DNA from: a virus | Length of the DNA: 24,370 bases | Virus record (IMG/VR): IMGVR_UViG_3300023184_000501 | Span: 1-24,370 of that record | Direction: 5' to 3' (one strand) | Shown: in pieces, positions 6,315 to 12,560 of the stretch | Numbering within the stretch: position 1 is the stretch's first letter | How the letters are laid out: the number at the start of each line of letters is the position of its first letter | Translations under genes and position numbers: made by a program | The notes under the pieces: model-generated | Database searches by the model: none | The model's input: the letters and a program-made list of their open reading frames with translations, nothing else | Told to the model about the DNA's origin: nothing

Positions 6315-6800
6315 TTAGAACACAAATTCAATAATCGAAGTGTAGGGCGGCGCCTGGCTGAATGTCACATTACCGCCAGCATATGTGTAAGTGTTCTGAT
6401 TCTGGTATACGCCATTGATGAAAATAGCCGAGGGCACAAACGACACAGGGAAAATTGTCTGCACGCCATCGCCAGTGGCATCACTTACCACAGCGCCGCC
6501 GCTGAAAGCATTGTCGTTCAGCGAGGTGTAGACCACGCTGCCTTTGGCATCAAGCACCTGAATGCTGTAGTCGGTGGTGGTGTAGAACCGTGTTGGCGTG
6601 CCCTGGTAGACCGGATAACCGCCCAAGGTGCGGATGGGCTGCACAGCAGGGATGGCCAGTGCTGAGTCCCAGTAGACCGCAATTTGGTTAACCTGGGGGC
6701 TTAGGTTGGCTGTGCCGATCCAGATGTAGCCATCGTCCAGCGGCTGGCCGTCAGCGCCAGCGAATGCTGGGTATGGCGGTCTGATTGAGAGTGCGGACAT
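6315..6800 (-). CDS. Tailspike head-binding adaptor, 161 aa
   Basis: Residues 1-95 resemble the P22 tailspike (gp9) N-terminal head-binding domain. Key parts are DGYIWIGTANLSP (P22 has KIYIGKIDTDP), QIAVYWDSA, QPIRTLGGYPVYQG and the TDYSIQVLDAKG region. Residues about 103-161 form a second small strand domain (DGVQTIFPVSFVPSAIFING, then VYQNQNTYTYAGG) of a kind common in phage fibres. In P22 the head-binding domain is fused to the enzymatic beta-helix; here the protein ends after the small domain and two separate receptor-binding genes follow. I infer that it attaches to the tail hub and carries the fibre and/or spike. The start overlaps the previous stop by one base (TAATG). Confidence 0.85.
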   Translation of the reverse strand: MSALSIRPPYPAFAGADGQPLDDGYIWIGTANLSPQVNQIAVYWDSALAIPAVQPIRTLGGYPVYQGTPTRFYTTTDYSIQVLDAKGSVVYTSLNDNAFSGGAVVSDATGDGVQTIFPVSFVPSAIFINGVYQNQNTYTYAGGNVTFSQAPPYTSIIEFVF

Positions 6801-9172
6801 TACTGGTTCTCCTGGGTGGATTGTCGGCCTGTTTGGATTCCTGTTTGGATTACAGATGTTAAACGCTTGAGCAATGCAGCTTCCTCTTTGCTTCCTGTAG
6901 CGGTCTGTGGTATTTTAATCAGCAAGTTGCGAATTGGTGCTGATTCATAAATTCGAGCAGCTACTCCTACGCTACCAGCTGCTCCAAGTGTTGCAAGGAA
7001 CCCAAGCAAGCCACCGCCAAAAAAGCTGGACAGTGCCGCAGCACTGACGGGAATTGCGGCTTGCACGCCTGTGGGTGGTGCTGCTGCGGCCTCAGATGCG
7101 CGTTTGGTGATGTTGAGCACCCTGGTGAGTCCTTCAATTTGTTTTAGGTCATCACCATTAAAAAACACGCCCACAGATGTGCCAAGACGTTTGACTTCAT
7201 TGGCAAATTTGTCTGGTGATACAACAGTTCCTTCAGCTACGTCTGCCGTTGCTTTTTCTGCTGCGCGAGCAAGAATTGCAGCTCTGGCGCTTTCGCGTCC
7301 TGCTGGAGTTAGGCTTGCATAAAGTTGCCTTACTTCGCTGGGTTTTTTGCTAAAAAGCATGTTGGCAATTACTTCTGGTGTCTCATCACCACGCCTGAGC
7401 ACTGATTTCAATGTGCTCATGTCAAGTTCACCAGCCAGATCAGACAATCGTTTGTTCGCCACTTTATACTTTGTCACATCACGGCGTTCACCAACTTGAG
7501 TGATAAACGCTTCCATATCTTGCTTGAGTGGTTTGTAAATGCTGGACAAGGCTTTTTCACCAATGCCACGAACAGATGCCAATTCTGGAGCCTTAAAACT
7601 TTCTCCGATTTGTTTGCGCAGTGTTTCAACATTGATCAAATTCTGATCTTGCAATGCAGCTTTCCAGTCGGTCAAGCGCTCAATAATTGGCGCAACTTCT
7701 TGAGTTTTTAGTCCTTCCAGTTTGGCAATTTGATCATCAATAGCTTGCACTGTTTTGGTCATTGGCACTGTGCCAGTCTCGCCAAGACGTTCAATAACTT
7801 CTGTCTTCAAGCCGGTGTATTTTGTAAGATCAGCACCACGTTTGGTTGCCAAGTCCTTCATCACATCGTCCGCTGCTCTGGCAGCATCATCGGCTCCAAA
7901 TTCGCGCAACACATTACGCACAGCCTCAATGCGCTCTGTCTGTTGAGCCTGACGTATGCCACCAGTTCCTGCGCCTGGAATACGCTCGCCAATGGTTTGC
8001 AACCATTTCGACGCAAAGGTGCGGGGTGGCACCACATCGCTGGTCATGAGAGTAATGCCTGCTTGCCTTGCGGCCTCAATGTCGGATGGCAATTGCCTTG
8101 CTCCCGCAACGGGTGGCGCTGCAGGCGGTACAGGTGGCGCTGCTGTTGGCACTTGTGTTTCAAAGGTTGGCTCAACCCGTGGCGCTGCAGGAGCAGGGGC
8201 AGGACGCGCCATAACCCTCTGTGCGCCGCCTTTGACTGCTTGGACTACTGGTGGAACCACTCGCTGAATAATCTGCCCTGCTGGGCCTAGAGCGCCTGCC
8301 AATGCCACTTCACCAACGTCTGCCAGACCCGTGCCACCGCCTGTTGCCGCTTGGCTGGCTTCGATGGCTGTTTGAGTTGCGCCAGCCTTCATGATTGCGC
8401 CAGGAATAGTGGCTGCTCGGCCAGCGGGTGTGAATGCTGCTGCTGTTGCTGCCCCGCGTGGAATATCTCGTGCGGTCAAACCTGGCTCAATAACGTATTC
8501 TTTGCCATCTGTCGGTGAGCGTAAAAATACGGTGCCTTGTTGGTCTAACCGATAAGTCAAGCCAGGGAAGTTAGCAGCAAAAATCTTGGCACGCTCTTCA
8601 GAGCCAGCCATCAACCCGCCGAGTGCCGCCTTCAGCAAGCCAAAAGACATTTGGTTGGCTTCTGGCATATCGTAGATTGTTCGCTTTTCAGCAAGTGCCG
8701 CAGCAACTTCTGGAGATGCAGCACGCCTACTACCTGTCACAGACTCAACCAAGCCCTCAAAGAAACCCAACTGTGGTGGCTTGACAGGGGTTGCAGGGGT
8801 TTGTGATGCCAGCCATGCCTCTGGTGAAACTGGGGCCGATGCTGGGGCTGCTGCCGGGGCTGCTGCCGGGGCAGAGGCTGCGGAAATTGATGGTAAGGCA
8901 CCAATGTCTACATTGACGCCCTTGCGAGCCAATTCTTTGACGATTGCGACAACATCACCTGCCGCCCTAGGATTGCCAGCTTGCTGTTGGCCTTGAGCCT
9001 TTTGCAATTCTTGCATCAGGATGGGAATGGCCTCTTGATCTCGGGCAGCCTGCTCGGTTGGCGTCACTCGTGCCCCTGGCATCCCAGGTGCTGCTACAGG
9101 CGCGGCAGGAGCTGCTACAGGCGCAGCAGGTGCTACCTGAGTCTGTGATGCCAGCCACTCTTCTGGGCTCAT
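6800..9172 (-). CDS. Large ejection-type protein (gp16-like position), 790 aa
   Basis: The start at 9172 gives an ATGA overlap with the previous gene and begins MSPEEWLASQT; an upstream TTG-type start at 9208 is less likely. A near copy of this opening, SPEAWLASQT, recurs at about residue 116 after an Ala/Pro-rich linker. The rest is Ala-rich and helical, with long charged coils in the C-terminal half (for example KTVQAIDDQIAKLEG) and a Gly/Ala hydrophobic stretch near residue 720 (SSFFGGGLLGFLATLGAAG) that could insert in a membrane. As the third and largest of three consecutive such genes between tail hub and tailspike, it matches the place of P22 gp16, a protein injected with the DNA. Sequence identity to gp16 is not claimed. 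Confidence 0.75.
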   Translation of the reverse strand: MSPEEWLASQTQVAPAAPVAAPAAPVAAPGMPGARVTPTEQAARDQEAIPILMQELQKAQGQQQAGNPRAAGDVVAIVKELARKGVNVDIGALPSISAASAPAAAPAAAPASAPVSPEAWLASQTPATPVKPPQLGFFEGLVESVTGSRRAASPEVAAALAEKRTIYDMPEANQMSFGLLKAALGGLMAGSEERAKIFAANFPGLTYRLDQQGTVFLRSPTDGKEYVIEPGLTARDIPRGAATAAAFTPAGRAATIPGAIMKAGATQTAIEASQAATGGGTGLADVGEVALAGALGPAGQIIQRVVPPVVQAVKGGAQRVMARPAPAPAAPRVEPTFETQVPTAAPPVPPAAPPVAGARQLPSDIEAARQAGITLMTSDVVPPRTFASKWLQTIGERIPGAGTGGIRQAQQTERIEAVRNVLREFGADDAARAADDVMKDLATKRGADLTKYTGLKTEVIERLGETGTVPMTKTVQAIDDQIAKLEGLKTQEVAPIIERLTDWKAALQDQNLINVETLRKQIGESFKAPELASVRGIGEKALSSIYKPLKQDMEAFITQVGERRDVTKYKVANKRLSDLAGELDMSTLKSVLRRGDETPEVIANMLFSKKPSEVRQLYASLTPAGRESARAAILARAAEKATADVAEGTVVSPDKFANEVKRLGTSVGVFFNGDDLKQIEGLTRVLNITKRASEAAAAPPTGVQAAIPVSAAALSSFFGGGLLGFLATLGAAGSVGVAARIYESAPIRNLLIKIPQTATGSKEEAALLKRLTSVIQTGIQTGRQSTQENQ

Positions 9173-10770
9173 TGCATGACCCCTTGGGCTTTGAGGTAGT
9201 CTCTCCATTGCGTATCAGTGAAACCAGGTGGCCGTGTGTAAGTCTGTCCTCCCACGGTTGCGCTGGTTGGTAATGGTGGCGCTTCTTGACCAAACACGTT
9301 TTCAGGATTGAGCTTGTAATTCTTGACCACTATGCCAAGCGCCTTCTTGTCGTCTACTGCTTTTTTCTGTGCAGCGTCCAAATATTGCTTGGCCAGATTG
9401 ACATACTCTTGGCGCTGGTTTGAGTTCAGTGAAAACAGTTGGCCGCTTTGGAATTTTTGAGCTTGGTTAGCAAGACGATCAAAAAGCCCAGCGGTGTCAC
9501 GCGCCGTTGCGAATTCAGTCTCACGCACCACTGAGCCTGGATCAAGCATCTTCATAAATCCAGTGATTAACGCAATGTCACCTGGGCCTGTTTTGGCTTT
9601 GGCAGACAATTCGATGTTGGAGAAAGTAGACCCCAGTTCGCCATAAACCTTGGTGCGGCCTTGATATTCCTTGCGTAGCTTTTCTTCCTGCTCAAATTTC
9701 TTGGCTGGATCAAGATCACCATTCTCAAGCGCTGCTATTTCCAGAACAATCTTGGCTGTCTCTTGACCAAGTTTCTTGGTTGTTGCCAATGCCTGATTTG
9801 TCTGTGCGGTTGTCAGACCAAGAGTTGCGGCTTTTGCCTTTAAGTCTGCTATTGCAACTTGAGGTGCAAATTGTGCTTCAATACGCGCTTTTTCTGCTTC
9901 TGCTGTTGCACGTTTTGCATCAGCTGCTGCTTTTTCTGCCGCATTGGTGGCGGTAGCCTGAGCCGTAATTGCATCGGCAATGCCTTTATCTGCTTTTGCC
10001 CTTGCCTCAATCAATTCGCTTGGTGCTTTTGCCACTCTCCTGGATTCTTCACCCTCACTTGCAGCAGTTAATGCCCTTTCCTTTGCAACCTGTGCAGAAC
10101 GTAAATCTGCCTCTGCTAGTAACCGAGAAGGGGTATCTGCTGCTTCGGCTACTTTTTTCTGTGCATCCGCTACAGCTGCACTTGCATCGGCCACGGCTTT
10201 GTCCAGTGTTGGTTTTGCCAGTCCAGCAGCTCTACTTTCTCCACCTAATTTAATTGCATTCTCAATTACTTTTTCACCACCTGGAATTTGCGAGATGGTG
10301 AAGCCAAAGTAATTTTCAGTTGCTTGCGGATTTTCTTTGGCCACATCACGCCATGTCTCCAAAAACTTGGCGCCAGCTTCGTCACCTGAGTTGCGCTTAG
10401 CATCAATTTGTTGGTCCATCAGACTAATGGCAATCCCTGGCTTGTTAGACTTAAACGCTGAAAACACCCGACTGGCTTGGTCAAGTGCTGTTTTCTGACG
10501 TTCGCTATCCAACATGCCAAAGCTCTCACGCACAGCCTTAGCCTGCGTTTCAGGCAGCATCATGGACAGGTTTGCGTAATCAGCAGCAGTGGCCTTTGGG
10601 CTTTGCAGCTTAGCAAACCCTGCTTGGATCAGCTTCTGCTGTTCTGCTTGCCGAACTTGCTGCTGCTGTTTGAATTGCGCGTCTTGGATGCTTGTGCCAG
10701 CTTGGAAAGCACTCAAGAATGCTTGTGTTGGGTCGGCAATTTGAACGCCGTAGTCAATAGGTGCTGGCAT
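9169..10770 (-). CDS. Ejection-type coiled-coil protein (gp20-like position), 533 aa
   Basis: The N-terminus (MPAPIDYGVQIADPTQAFLS) is typical of phage internal proteins that follow the gp7-like gene. Residues about 25-50 are Gln-rich, 60-180 helical, and 188-350 a long Ala/Lys/Glu coiled coil (AVADAQKKVAEAA, AEKAAADAKRATAEAEKAR). The C-terminus holds TYTRPPGFTDTQW and KAQGVMQ, a short motif frequent at the ends of such proteins. P22 gp20 (471 aa) sits in the same place and is ejected with the genome. Overlaps of one base (TAATG) with the previous gene and 4 bases (ATGA) with the next make the three a tightly coupled set. Role inferred from order, composition and size. Confidence 0.75.
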   Translation of the reverse strand: MPAPIDYGVQIADPTQAFLSAFQAGTSIQDAQFKQQQQVRQAEQQKLIQAGFAKLQSPKATAADYANLSMMLPETQAKAVRESFGMLDSERQKTALDQASRVFSAFKSNKPGIAISLMDQQIDAKRNSGDEAGAKFLETWRDVAKENPQATENYFGFTISQIPGGEKVIENAIKLGGESRAAGLAKPTLDKAVADASAAVADAQKKVAEAADTPSRLLAEADLRSAQVAKERALTAASEGEESRRVAKAPSELIEARAKADKGIADAITAQATATNAAEKAAADAKRATAEAEKARIEAQFAPQVAIADLKAKAATLGLTTAQTNQALATTKKLGQETAKIVLEIAALENGDLDPAKKFEQEEKLRKEYQGRTKVYGELGSTFSNIELSAKAKTGPGDIALITGFMKMLDPGSVVRETEFATARDTAGLFDRLANQAQKFQSGQLFSLNSNQRQEYVNLAKQYLDAAQKKAVDDKKALGIVVKNYKLNPENVFGQEAPPLPTSATVGGQTYTRPPGFTDTQWRDYLKAQGVMQ

Positions 10771-11633
10771 TAGAATTTACCTCCTAGGCCACTGTAAATA
10801 CCAAGGCCACTGGCAAGTGCCGTTGGGAATGCGCCATATGCCCTGCCTTGGGCAATAGCGCCGCCAGCCTGAGCTGCTCCTTGTTCTCCAAGAAGTTTGG
10901 CTATGTTTGTGCCTTCTGCTCCATAAATATTGCCAATATTGGTTCCTGCTGTTGTTCCAGCGGAGCCAACACCAGCCGCAGATGCTTGGCCAATGCGAGC
11001 CAGTTCGCCTGTAGCGCCCATGCCTGCTGTGGCCAGATTCTGAGCAACTGTGCCGCCTGTTGCCGCCAAACCGCCCAATTGACCATATTGTTTTTCAATC
11101 AAGTTTGACAGCAAGGCTGGCCGAAACTGGCCAAGTGCGGCTTGAATGTTGCCACCACGCAGACCGCCTGTGGCTGATGCACGCTGTAGCAAGGATTCTT
11201 CTCCCTGCTGGGCCAGGGCTTTGAATTGCTCGCCGCCACTGATGCGTTGAATGGCCGCACGTTCTGCCTCTGGACCTCTAAGCCCAAGCAAGGCTTGCTG
11301 TTGCTCAAGTGCTGGTGCGCCGGCCTGTGCGTATTGTTGGAGTGTTGGCAATGCTCCTGCGCCAGCAGCTTGGTAGGGTGCATAAGCCCCAAGCGCTCCT
11401 CCTCCAGCAGCAACAAATGGCTGCAGTATTTTTTGCACTGCATCAAATTGCCTGCGCTGTTCATCAATGGCAAGTTGCGATGAAGCGCCTTGTTGAGCAA
11501 TTCCTTTTTCGGCCGCTGCGCCTTGTATTTCCGCCGCTTTGCTGGCAGCATTGCTTTGCATAAAGCCCGAGACAATCGTCGCGCCACCGACTGCAATGGC
11601 ACCCAGGGCTGCTGCTGATAATCCGAATGTCAT
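10770..11633 (-). CDS. Ejection / DNA transfer-type protein (gp7-like position), 287 aa
   Basis: Residues 4-25 form a hydrophobic Ala/Gly helix (ALGAIAVGGATIVSGF). Residues 60-200 contain a pattern I recall from phage internal or DNA-transfer proteins: RRQFDAVQKILQPFVAAGGG, QQQALLGLRGPEAE, FKALAQQGEESLLQ, ASATGGLRGGN and QFRPALLSNLIEKQYG. The C-terminal third is Gly/Ala-rich and low in charge. It is the first and smallest of three consecutive ejection-type genes, like P22 gp7 (229 aa). The ATG overlaps the cupin gene's stop as ATGA. It would be packaged inside the head and released into the periplasm or membrane on infection; that is inferred from the P22 model. Confidence 0.8.
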   Translation of the reverse strand: MTFGLSAAALGAIAVGGATIVSGFMQSNAASKAAEIQGAAAEKGIAQQGASSQLAIDEQRRQFDAVQKILQPFVAAGGGALGAYAPYQAAGAGALPTLQQYAQAGAPALEQQQALLGLRGPEAERAAIQRISGGEQFKALAQQGEESLLQRASATGGLRGGNIQAALGQFRPALLSNLIEKQYGQLGGLAATGGTVAQNLATAGMGATGELARIGQASAAGVGSAGTTAGTNIGNIYGAEGTNIAKLLGEQGAAQAGGAIAQGRAYGAFPTALASGLGIYSGLGGKF

Positions 11634-12082
11634 GTTGATTCCTCCAATTGCGCAGGTTGCACAGCCTCAAGAGACGGTGCTGGCGCTGGAATGGTGAACA
11701 AGTCCCACAGGGCTTGCGGGTTTTTCTCGTTGGTCGGGTTGGCGTGGAATGTGGTTATTTCAACATCAGTCAAAGCAATGCCAGCGCGTTTGGTGCCAAT
11801 TTTGGAAATGCTCATGTCGCCTGGACCAAGACGCTGTGGGCCAGTGTCTGTGCTGACAATCAAATCGCCTTTGCGCACCAGGAAGAACGATTCTTCTCGA
11901 TGGACTGCTCCGGTCAGGACGGTGCCGGCCGGGATGTGCATTGTGCGAGCGTACAGGCCAGCGCAGAAAGCGTGGTCAATCGGCAACGGCACCTGGGGCA
12001 GCTTGAGCAGCTCACCTTCTAAGAGGTAGATGGGCATGTGCTCGGCTGGCACGCCAGCTTCCAAAACCGCAACATGACTCAT
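11630..12082 (-). CDS. Cupin-fold protein in the virion operon, 150 aa
   Basis: I choose the ATG at 12082 (MSHVAVLEAG) because AGGAG lies 7 bases upstream; a GTG start at 12181 would add 33 low-complexity residues and overlap the previous gene by 20 bases. Residues about 48-113 follow the cupin pattern: PAGTVLTGAVHREESFFLVR with His61 and Glu64, then KGDLIV and RLGPGDM. The second cupin motif lacks the usual His-plus-Asn set, since GTKRAG replaces the His-bearing loop, although His113 is near. Metal binding is therefore doubtful and the fold may be structural. The C-terminus is Pro/Ala/Glu-rich and disordered-looking. It lies between a Cys-rich gene and the ejection genes. The biochemical role is unknown. 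Confidence 0.75.
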   Translation of the reverse strand: MSHVAVLEAGVPAEHMPIYLLEGELLKLPQVPLPIDHAFCAGLYARTMHIPAGTVLTGAVHREESFFLVRKGDLIVSTDTGPQRLGPGDMSISKIGTKRAGIALTDVEITTFHANPTNEKNPQALWDLFTIPAPAPSLEAVQPAQLEEST

Positions 12083-12161
12083 CGAGAACTCCTGTTCAGG
12101 GTGAGCTACTGGCGGCTCGGACGGCTCAGTGCTGGCTATTTTCCCACATTTCAGCATTTGG

Positions 12162-12560
12162 TCAATCCATTTCAGATTCACGATCTTCCCACGCCTGGCA
12201 AACCCGCATATCGTTGCAGATGAAGTTCAGCTTCTCGCAGTGGCCACGGTAGCCAGCGCCCTGGTCGTAACTGGCCATCGGGATGCGCTCAATCCGCACT
12301 TGGGTCATAAAGCTGTTGTCGTAGTACTCGCAATTTGAGCAGTGCTTGCGCCGTGCGTCTTTGGCATCGCACTGCATTGCCTCGGCCAGGGATTCATAAA
12401 ACTCAGGGTTGGCCTTTGGCTCGTTGGTCGGCACCTCTGGACCGTAGTGCCAATCTTTCACAGCAATGGCATAGTTCTTCTTGTTCTCAGACGATGTGAT
12501 AAACCCTTCGTCCATCGGCAGGCCAGCAAAGCCTCTGGGAATCATCATAAATTGTTTCAT
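12162..12560 (-). CDS. Cys-rich protein with a putative metal or Fe-S site, 132 aa
   Basis: Six Cys lie at 64, 74, 77, 108, 115 and 121. The second half reads RKHCSNCEYYDN ... GHCEKLNFICNDMRVCQAWE, so a CxxC is followed about 30 residues later by C-x6-C-x5-C. I have seen this layout in small phage proteins compared to high-potential iron-sulfur proteins, but zinc is equally possible. The N-terminus (MKQFMMIPRGFAGLPMDEGF) has no signal peptide, and residues 25-60 contain aromatic and Pro residues without known motifs. AAGG precedes the ATG, 9 bases after the previous stop. Its place among tail-completion genes hints at a virion role. The function is not known to me. Confidence 0.75.
   Translation of the reverse strand: MKQFMMIPRGFAGLPMDEGFITSSENKKNYAIAVKDWHYGPEVPTNEPKANPEFYESLAEAMQCDAKDARRKHCSNCEYYDNSFMTQVRIERIPMASYDQGAGYRGHCEKLNFICNDMRVCQAWEDRESEMD

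Follow-up and report, generated by a model that had tools for sequence, protein, structure and literature searches.

A predicted cupin-fold protein without the canonical metal ligands occupies an exchangeable slot ahead of the first ejection gene of short-tailed phages

The cupin-fold protein encoded in a 24,370-base virus record (this whole stretch of DNA is referred to as the window) is found to fill a slot directly ahead of the first ejection gene, and this slot, referred to as the helper slot, can also be filled by proteins of unrelated folds. The relation between the cupin and this slot is new here. Whichever gene fills the slot, it is exchanged jointly with the part of the ejection gene that encodes the N-terminus, and the two are matched in type. 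On balance, we favor that the cupin is a dedicated, metal-less and non-enzymatic helper, acting in assembly as a chaperone or escort of the first ejection protein, which is encoded directly after it. The association of the cupin with the ejection protein is strong; from this association we infer that the cupin binds the N-terminus of its partner.

The structural genes of the window are on the minus strand and are arranged in the order of P22, being the terminase position, a P22-type portal gene (Pfam P22_portal, E=4e-153), the scaffold and coat positions, a gp4-like gene (P22_Tail-4), a head closure Hc3/gp10-like gene (Phage_stabilise), several small genes, the cupin gene, and then three ejection-type genes. 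The cupin gene (12082..11630, minus strand) has its ATG start codon at 12082 and its TGA stop codon at 11630, encoding 150 residues, and is preceded by an AGGAG ribosome-binding site (12089..12093, minus strand) six bases ahead of the ATG, such that the GTG start at 12181 proposed by the ORF finder is unnecessary. These limits are the same as in the original prediction, which also described a translational coupling to the ejection genes. In the sequence, the stop codon of the cupin gene and the start codon of the next gene indeed overlap in ATGA (11630..11633, minus strand); the same overlap is present in 133 of 205 cupin/gp7-like pairs elsewhere. The next gene (10770..11633, minus strand), which also has its own GGAGG, encodes the partner of the cupin, a P22 gp7-like first ejection protein (phrog_598, DNA ejection, E=7e-22). 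Its 5' end of about 25 codons (11559..11633, minus strand), encoding MTFGLSAAALGAIAVGG..., specifies an uncharged hydrophobic N-terminus and lies within the co-swapped cassette. The second ejection gene (9169..10770, minus strand) is assigned by its position, which is the P22 gp20 place, and matches phrog_13634 of unknown function, and the third (6800..9208, minus strand) is P22 gp16-like (phrog_770, DNA transfer protein, E=4e-68). On the other side of the cupin gene, a Cys-rich gene (12162..12560, minus strand) is common to relatives with a cupin, with a helical protein or with no helper, and stays in place where the adjacent helper gene is swapped or absent. Searches with its product give nothing in PHROGs or NCBIfam and nothing above the cut-off in Pfam, and its relative in MW202867 is annotated as a 'high potential iron-sulfur protein'.

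The cupin pattern noted in the original prediction is recovered at the level of both sequence and predicted structure. Cupin_2 is the sole Pfam match of the protein (E=2.5e-4, 21.1 bits, which is below the curated cut-off of 27.2). The AlphaFold2 model, built from an alignment of 61 members, has a mean pLDDT of 88.2 (94-98 across residues 31-130) and consists of one barrel with short terminal helices. When this model is compared with known structures, the Foldseek matches at E<=0.001 amount to 462 PDB chains, those listed being cupin-type barrels, and VIA finds single-domain cupins with Z up to 11.9 (rmsd 2.3, 86 aligned residues). The protein is therefore confidently predicted to have the double-stranded β-helix barrel of the cupin superfamily, and no different fold emerges from the modeling. 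This is the barrel of the TM1459-type manganese cupin, of KdgF, of DddK and of other single-domain metal cupins, to which the sequence identity is 7-22% among the matches listed; phmmer and profile searches for a direct homologue in the PDB give nothing convincing, and no enzyme with an intact site is found as an orthologue.

These metal cupins have metal sites, whereas the phage family does not have the ligand set. The ligand columns are assigned by sequence alignment to TM1459, rather than by superposition, using the residues that we take to be the TM1459 metal ligands. In the profile alignment, positions 59, 61 and 65 of the window protein fall under the TM1459 HxHxxxH motif, and residues 94-99 correspond to P-x-G-x-x-H, presumably the motif-2 pattern of cupins, with R99 replacing the histidine. 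The residues at the four ligand positions are thus A59, H61, S65 and R99. In 122 members of the family (271 before dereplication at 80%), residue 99 is Arg in 99, Gln in 14, Lys in seven, Asn in two and His in none, and histidine is present at residue 59 in 8/122, at residue 61 in 105/122 and at residue 65 in 57/122; all four ligands together occur in 0/122. Judged from these alignments, the ligand set of metal-dependent cupins (the HxH...E/H of motif 1 and the histidine of motif 2) is absent, and a metal enzyme is rejected on the counts for the motif-2 histidine and for the full set. The degraded second motif of the original prediction is clearly not peculiar to the window protein, as the absence of its histidine in 122/122 members implies that the loss of the metal site is old and family-wide rather than recent. 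The metal site appears to be gone from the whole family, yet a different set of residues is retained: R46 and G72 never vary, changes at Y44, G58 and K98 are rare, and H61 and R99 are also conserved. These residues may line the pocket of the cupin.

Phages of very different kinds have the cupin next to an ejection-type gene. The cupin is directly ahead of the first ejection gene in BA3 (Thalassomonas), X14 (Shewanella), VPMS1 (Vibrio), VvAW1 and Vibrio phage 1.003.O, and in Variovorax phage VAC_51 it lies between a tail protein and an internal virion protein, which is the place of gene 13 in T7. In 88 IMG/VR loci, picked from cupin searches, there are 82 with a downstream frame, and when considering that a single protein may match several PHROGs, the downstream gene matches phrog_598 (DNA ejection) in 54/82, phrog_418 (internal virion protein) in 8/82, phrog_21132 in 5/82 and phrog_4287 (DNA ejection) in 2/82. 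There is no constant upstream partner: 83 PHROGs are matched across the 86 upstream genes, and no single PHROG by more than five of these genes. The original prediction also raised the possibility that the cupin acts on an injected or host sugar; this finds no support, as the conserved neighbor is an ejection protein and not a sugar pathway. In Foturvirus H4/4 and in BPP-1 (Bordetella), the cupin precedes a small gene adjoining the portal (head-tail adaptor) gene, and in the BPP-1-type phages it is a GNAT-cupin pair that precedes a small gene near the portal gene, not an ejection gene. The small protein encoded after the cupin in BPP-1, Foturvirus and Acinetobacter phage MD-2021a (L082:10400-10807, L088:8306-8560 and L133:5579-6004) has the same kind of N-terminus as the ejection proteins, and in the first two its gene precedes the portal gene; by position, it could be the counterpart of T7 gp6.7 or gp7.3.

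The content of the slot is also analyzed independently of the cupin, using 177 loci fetched with four queries by the ejection gene alone, in which the gene directly upstream is classified with profiles built for this census. It is found that the slot contains a GNAT-like protein in 107 loci, a cupin in 28, a cupin-SET fusion in four (L289, with a Pfam SET match, is counted as a plain cupin), a helical protein in 26 and no helper in nine, whereas three loci are cut off. Of the GNAT-like loci, 80 are near-identical and come from the P22-type query, and their class rests on a profile built from P22 gp14 and two other loci, one of which (L278) matches Acetyltransf_3 and DUF2824, both weakly. When the loci are clustered by their ejection proteins, with a 70% identity limit that yields 32 clusters, a cupin is present in 11 clusters, a helical protein in eight, a GNAT in eight, a cupin-SET fusion in three and no helper in five, and four of the 32 clusters are of mixed helper type. 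Two separate helper genes occur in the slot in 0/177 loci. Outside the census, a GNAT hit beside the cupin is seen in 15 BPP-1-type cupin loci, which have no gp7-like hit, and a GNAT and a cupin are also side by side in MD-2021a. In a tree calculated from 80 ejection proteins after removing the first 35 residues, the helper type requires 15 changes (11 when omitting loci without a helper) versus 43 for shuffled helper labels. As nine loci have no helper, it is dispensable in some phages. In L148, L157 and L131 the upstream gene is followed by the ejection gene without a helper, and the ejection protein of L131 starts with MVWGAI.

The exchange of the slot gene is seen directly when closely related loci are aligned. 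Between the window and L146 there is an identity of 94% over 1,923 nt, which stops at the start codon of the cupin gene (12079..12082, minus strand), the upstream edge of the swap; the similarity returns (83%) 164 nt inside the ejection gene, and a helical gene lies in between in L146. In comparable breaks, the similarity returns +72 nt into the ejection gene with L134, +92 nt in the L140/L162 pair, +63 nt in the L323/L326 pair (helical versus cupin-SET) and +15 nt in the L311/L325 pair (GNAT-like versus helical), such that 5 to about 55 codons of the ejection gene are replaced per swap in the best pairs. The median for all cupin/helical pairs, including poorer alignments, is 195 nt into the ejection gene. 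The same flanks as in the swap pairs are present, without a helper, in L148 and L157. In the census of junctions, which uses ordered pairs of loci and leaves out the 80 P22-type loci, a single alignment passes through the junction in 14,082 of the 17,686 same-helper pairs with hits. For different-helper pairs there are none, although both flanks are present in 2,232, and the homology never returns earlier than 15 nt inside the ejection gene. A chimeric assembly is unlikely, as the cupin and helical versions are found on many contigs from different samples. The alignments thus show a joint exchange of the slot gene and of the N-terminus encoded after it.

The matching is apparent when the first 25 residues of the ejection proteins are compared in pairs of loci with the same or with different helpers, again with the P22-type loci left out. 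For a rest-of-protein identity of 65-75%, these residues are 82% identical with the same helper (1,895 pairs) versus 22% with different helpers (481 pairs), and for a rest-of-protein identity of 85-95% the fractions are 0.88 (406 pairs) versus 0.21 (23 pairs); at identities under 45% little of this difference is left (0.30 versus 0.26). The cupin-linked N-termini are uncharged and rich in Ala, Gly and Val. A start of the type M[SATC][WFY] is present in 81 of 102 unique cupin-linked N-termini, with five more having the motif after an N-terminal extension, versus 0/29 GNAT-linked, 0/16 helical-linked and 0/5 cupin-SET-linked unique N-termini. MP[DEN]P is the start of 15 of the 16 helical-linked N-termini and of none elsewhere, and the cupin-SET-linked proteins start with MSG, MSA or MSS. 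In Fisher tests on these classes, each unique N-terminus counts as an independent case, although the N-termini are not independent. In L196, L211, L224, L229 and L240, the start of the ejection gene is called upstream and the motif follows Cys-[NE] ('CNAWVATA'); this prefix may be a cleaved N-terminal extension or reflect a missed start.

The same rule is seen in a wider set of 264 loci with at least 250 nt downstream of the cupin. In its 241 canonical cupin loci, among which MD-2021a is counted despite its preceding GNAT and for which the automatic start choice misreads some loci (for example L293 and L224), the motif is present in 104 of 127 unique partner N-termini, whereas the gene that follows the partner has it in 4 of 129. 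The 23 N-termini without the motif are in part due to a wrong start choice and in part genuine, as for MSVV in BA3 and X14. In the loci with both a GNAT and a cupin, 15 of 16 unique partner N-termini start with M[ST]G, and partners without a match to the gp7 profile obey the same N-terminal rule. For 81 canonical cupins remaining after dereplication at 70%, the partner has Ser, Ala or Thr as residue 2 in 79 and Trp or Phe as residue 3 in 68; the starts in this set, as in the set of 130 cupins discussed below, are picked by hydrophobicity, which favors the hydropathy figures of the 81-cupin set.

When considering individual residues of the cupin, it is found in the 130 dereplicated cupins that residue 3 of the partner is non-aromatic in 17/17 cases without H61, and that H61 is kept in 94/94 cases with an aromatic residue 3. 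H61 is replaced by Ile in the BPP-1 type and by Gln or Tyr in some SET fusions, and the association with residue 3 represents few evolutionary events. In an independent-pairs tree test, which is underpowered for this sample, the N-terminal class follows the helical helper in 4.6 of 5 pairs, with none against (p=0.0625), and the cupin class in 3.3 of 4 pairs (p=0.25). For cupin residue 99 or 113 versus partner residue 3, there are one or two supported independent pairs, although the Fisher test for R99 gives p 5e-11 when phylogeny is ignored. In one supported clade, L113 (residue 113 is encoded by 11744-11746 in the window) goes with Phe or Tyr at partner residue 3 and H113 mostly with Trp. L113 occurs with Phe or Tyr only in 8/8 cases among 86 rows, but this pattern needs only two changes on the tree and is not independent evidence. 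There are also exceptions: T7 gp14 starts with MCW, though there is no cupin at that position in T7, and the ejection protein of ct76p945 starts with MVW without a helper. A strict code between helper and N-terminus is broken by T7 gp14.

The other proteins found in the slot are of different folds. The helical family that replaces the cupin is phrog_21390 (L146:2547-2990, L162, L323, L325 and L331), which shares with the cupin the slot and the co-swap with the N-terminus of the ejection protein and differs from its barrel in being all-helical, as seen in the predicted model (pLDDT 88.6). Foldseek gives no significant hit for this model (best E 1.6). VIA gives prenyl-diphosphate-synthase-type folds in all 50 matches listed (best Z 9.0, which is under the level safe for helical proteins, rmsd 3.8, 135 aligned residues), and D34-D35-x-x-D38, a DDxxD-like motif, is invariant in the alignment, which is suggestive of a prenyl-synthase-like fold. 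In the slot GNATs, using a simple pattern that we take to describe the acetyl-CoA loop, 16/107 have the pattern, nine of them probably by chance and seven in canonical form, and 91/107 do not have it. Pfam SET matches are found in 5/5 cupin-SET proteins tested (L245, L256, L289, L293 and L326). A C-terminal SET domain is fused to the cupin in the same slot in these loci and in L291 and L292, and L288, where the contig begins, probably encodes a C-terminal remnant of such a protein. In L173:4602-5444 and L259:4524-5366 the cupin has an N-terminal extension, which by eye resembles a degenerate GNAT (no Pfam match is found for that of L173), and these are possible GNAT-cupin fusions.

The slot also exists in the classical short-tailed phages, as T7 gp13 (138 residues) and P22 gp14 (151 residues), which are similar in size to the window cupin, are encoded directly ahead of T7 gene 14 and P22 gene 7, respectively. 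They belong to other Pfam families (Phage_T7_Gp13 and DUF2824) and have no cupin match, nor does the window cupin match these two families in Pfam; they are not homologous to the cupin, and P22 gp14, being DUF2824, is rejected as a candidate homologue. The notion that these two proteins are GNAT-like is partly supported by L278 with its two weak matches, to Acetyltransf_3 and DUF2824; hhalign of DUF2824 against the slot GNATs gives a probability of 2.5 and E 0.018 with alignments of only three and eight sequences. Neither T7 gp13 nor P22 gp14 is known to have a clear role. T7 gp13 is required for the entry of gp6.7 into T7 heads.

In the mechanism that we favor, the cupin would bind the freshly synthesized ejection protein at its N-terminus, which is uncharged and hydrophobic (Met-[SAT]-[WF]-...), perhaps via the pocket with H61, K98, R99 and residue 113. 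It would keep this N-terminus away from membranes and aggregates, pass the ejection protein to the growing head and then depart, being absent from the finished virion. A helper that recognizes and protects an N-terminus and is not needed later can be replaced by a protein of an unlike fold, its 5' partner sequence would travel with it, and the enzyme sites of the folds used could decay. The link between a non-enzymatic cupin and the ejection genes in the original prediction is supported, and of its interpretations (virion binding, assembly or action on a sugar) it is the assembly module that is favored here, given that the helper is swapped along with the first codons of the ejection gene and given the virion composition of a T7-like phage. 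In the list of proteins detected by mass spectrometry in the phiPsa17 virion, gp6.7, gp7.3, gp8-gp12 and gp14-gp17 are present and the homologue of gp13, the slot protein of T7, is not (PMC4517105); in the text of a paper on the T7 core structure, gp13 is mentioned zero times (PMC11784390). Among the papers searched, there is no text linking a phage cupin to ejection proteins, no virion proteome of a phage with such a cupin and no experiment placing the family on the tail or testing it in adsorption, and no phage chaperone is among the structural-library folds listed, which excludes nothing.

The virion data of phiPsa17 argue against the alternative of a cupin present in the virion in small amounts, packaged alongside the ejection proteins in the core, the portal or the tail channel and ejected or left behind, where it would be a structural adaptor for the N-terminus. 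An exchange between unrelated folds is also harder to envisage for a fixed structural part. The location of the cupin gene inside the virion operon is in agreement with such a component, the record of Shewanella phage X14 calls the homologue an 'Unknown function structural gene' (an annotation), and matched N-termini suit a structural contact equally well; we consider this alternative unlikely. Still less probable is that the cupin modifies the N-terminus of the ejection protein via a non-classical active site, as might be suggested by the strong conservation of H61, K98 and R99, by neighbors and fusions of GNAT (acetylation) and SET (methylation) types, including the five proteins with Pfam SET matches, and by the seven canonical acetyl-CoA loops. 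The motif-2 histidine and the complete ligand set are absent from all 122 relatives, most slot GNATs do not have the acetyl-CoA loop, and the four unlike folds have no common chemistry.

It is also conceivable that the co-swap reflects physical linkage alone, because the helper and ejection genes overlap and any breakpoint inside the ejection gene carries along its 5' end, so that the N-terminal signature would be due to common ancestry without a functional contact. The ATGA overlap and the tree-based tests of co-change, which are all above 0.05, fit this explanation. Against it are the absence of any breakpoint between helper and ejection gene, the persistence of the signature at residues 2 and 3 in partners without a match to the gp7 profile and in the 81 dereplicated canonical cupins, and the fact that the helical helper is accompanied by MP[DEN]P in ejection proteins of two distinct groups, and we regard it as quite improbable. 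The least credible alternative is a short tail fiber or tail adhesin, the name given in PHROGs and in several GenBank records. Over residues 18-132 of its 150, the window protein matches phrog_12032 ('short tail fiber protein', E=5.2e-29), and it also matches phrog_24280 ('tail fiber adhesin', E=1e-21), whose proteins (BA3_0007, VPMS1 MS_018 and BPP-1 bbp23) belong by profile match to the same family, although the BPP-1 type differs from the window cupin in having neither H61 nor R99 and in being paired with a GNAT; CDD PHA00672 is cited for these cupin-like proteins in the VPMS1 and VvAW1 records. For ORF43 of Ralstonia phage phiAP1, annotated as a short tail fiber with a cupin domain, one paper remarks that the assignment was not validated by experiment (PMC8703784). 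The window protein is a single cupin of 150 residues, conserved across different phage types, with no fiber domain in Pfam and no fiber-type stalk or head-binding part, and separate genes of head-binding and β-helix tailspike-like type are present in the window. The fiber and adhesin names are annotations for which no support is found here.

A more general and more tentative reading extends the favored helper role to the whole slot. Short-tailed phages may have an interchangeable helper slot of unrelated, mostly degraded enzyme folds, each reading the first residues of the ejection protein, where helper and tag would form a lock-and-key cassette that recombines as one unit. The folds of this cassette would be the cupin, the GNAT-like, the isoprenyl-synthase-like and the cupin-SET proteins, and perhaps the GNAT-cupin fusions, and the tags would be [SAT][WF] for the cupin, [ST][GA] for the BPP-1- and SET-type cupins and P[DEN]P for the helical proteins.

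Short-tailed phages must make hydrophobic ejection proteins in a cell without harm to themselves, and these proteins have to enter the head during assembly and cross the envelope afterwards. Swap-in helpers matched to N-terminal tags would turn this into a testable problem, namely which helper binds which N-terminus. The helper reading also questions the widely copied 'tail fiber' annotation, and it would show that enzyme folds can be reused without their chemistry.
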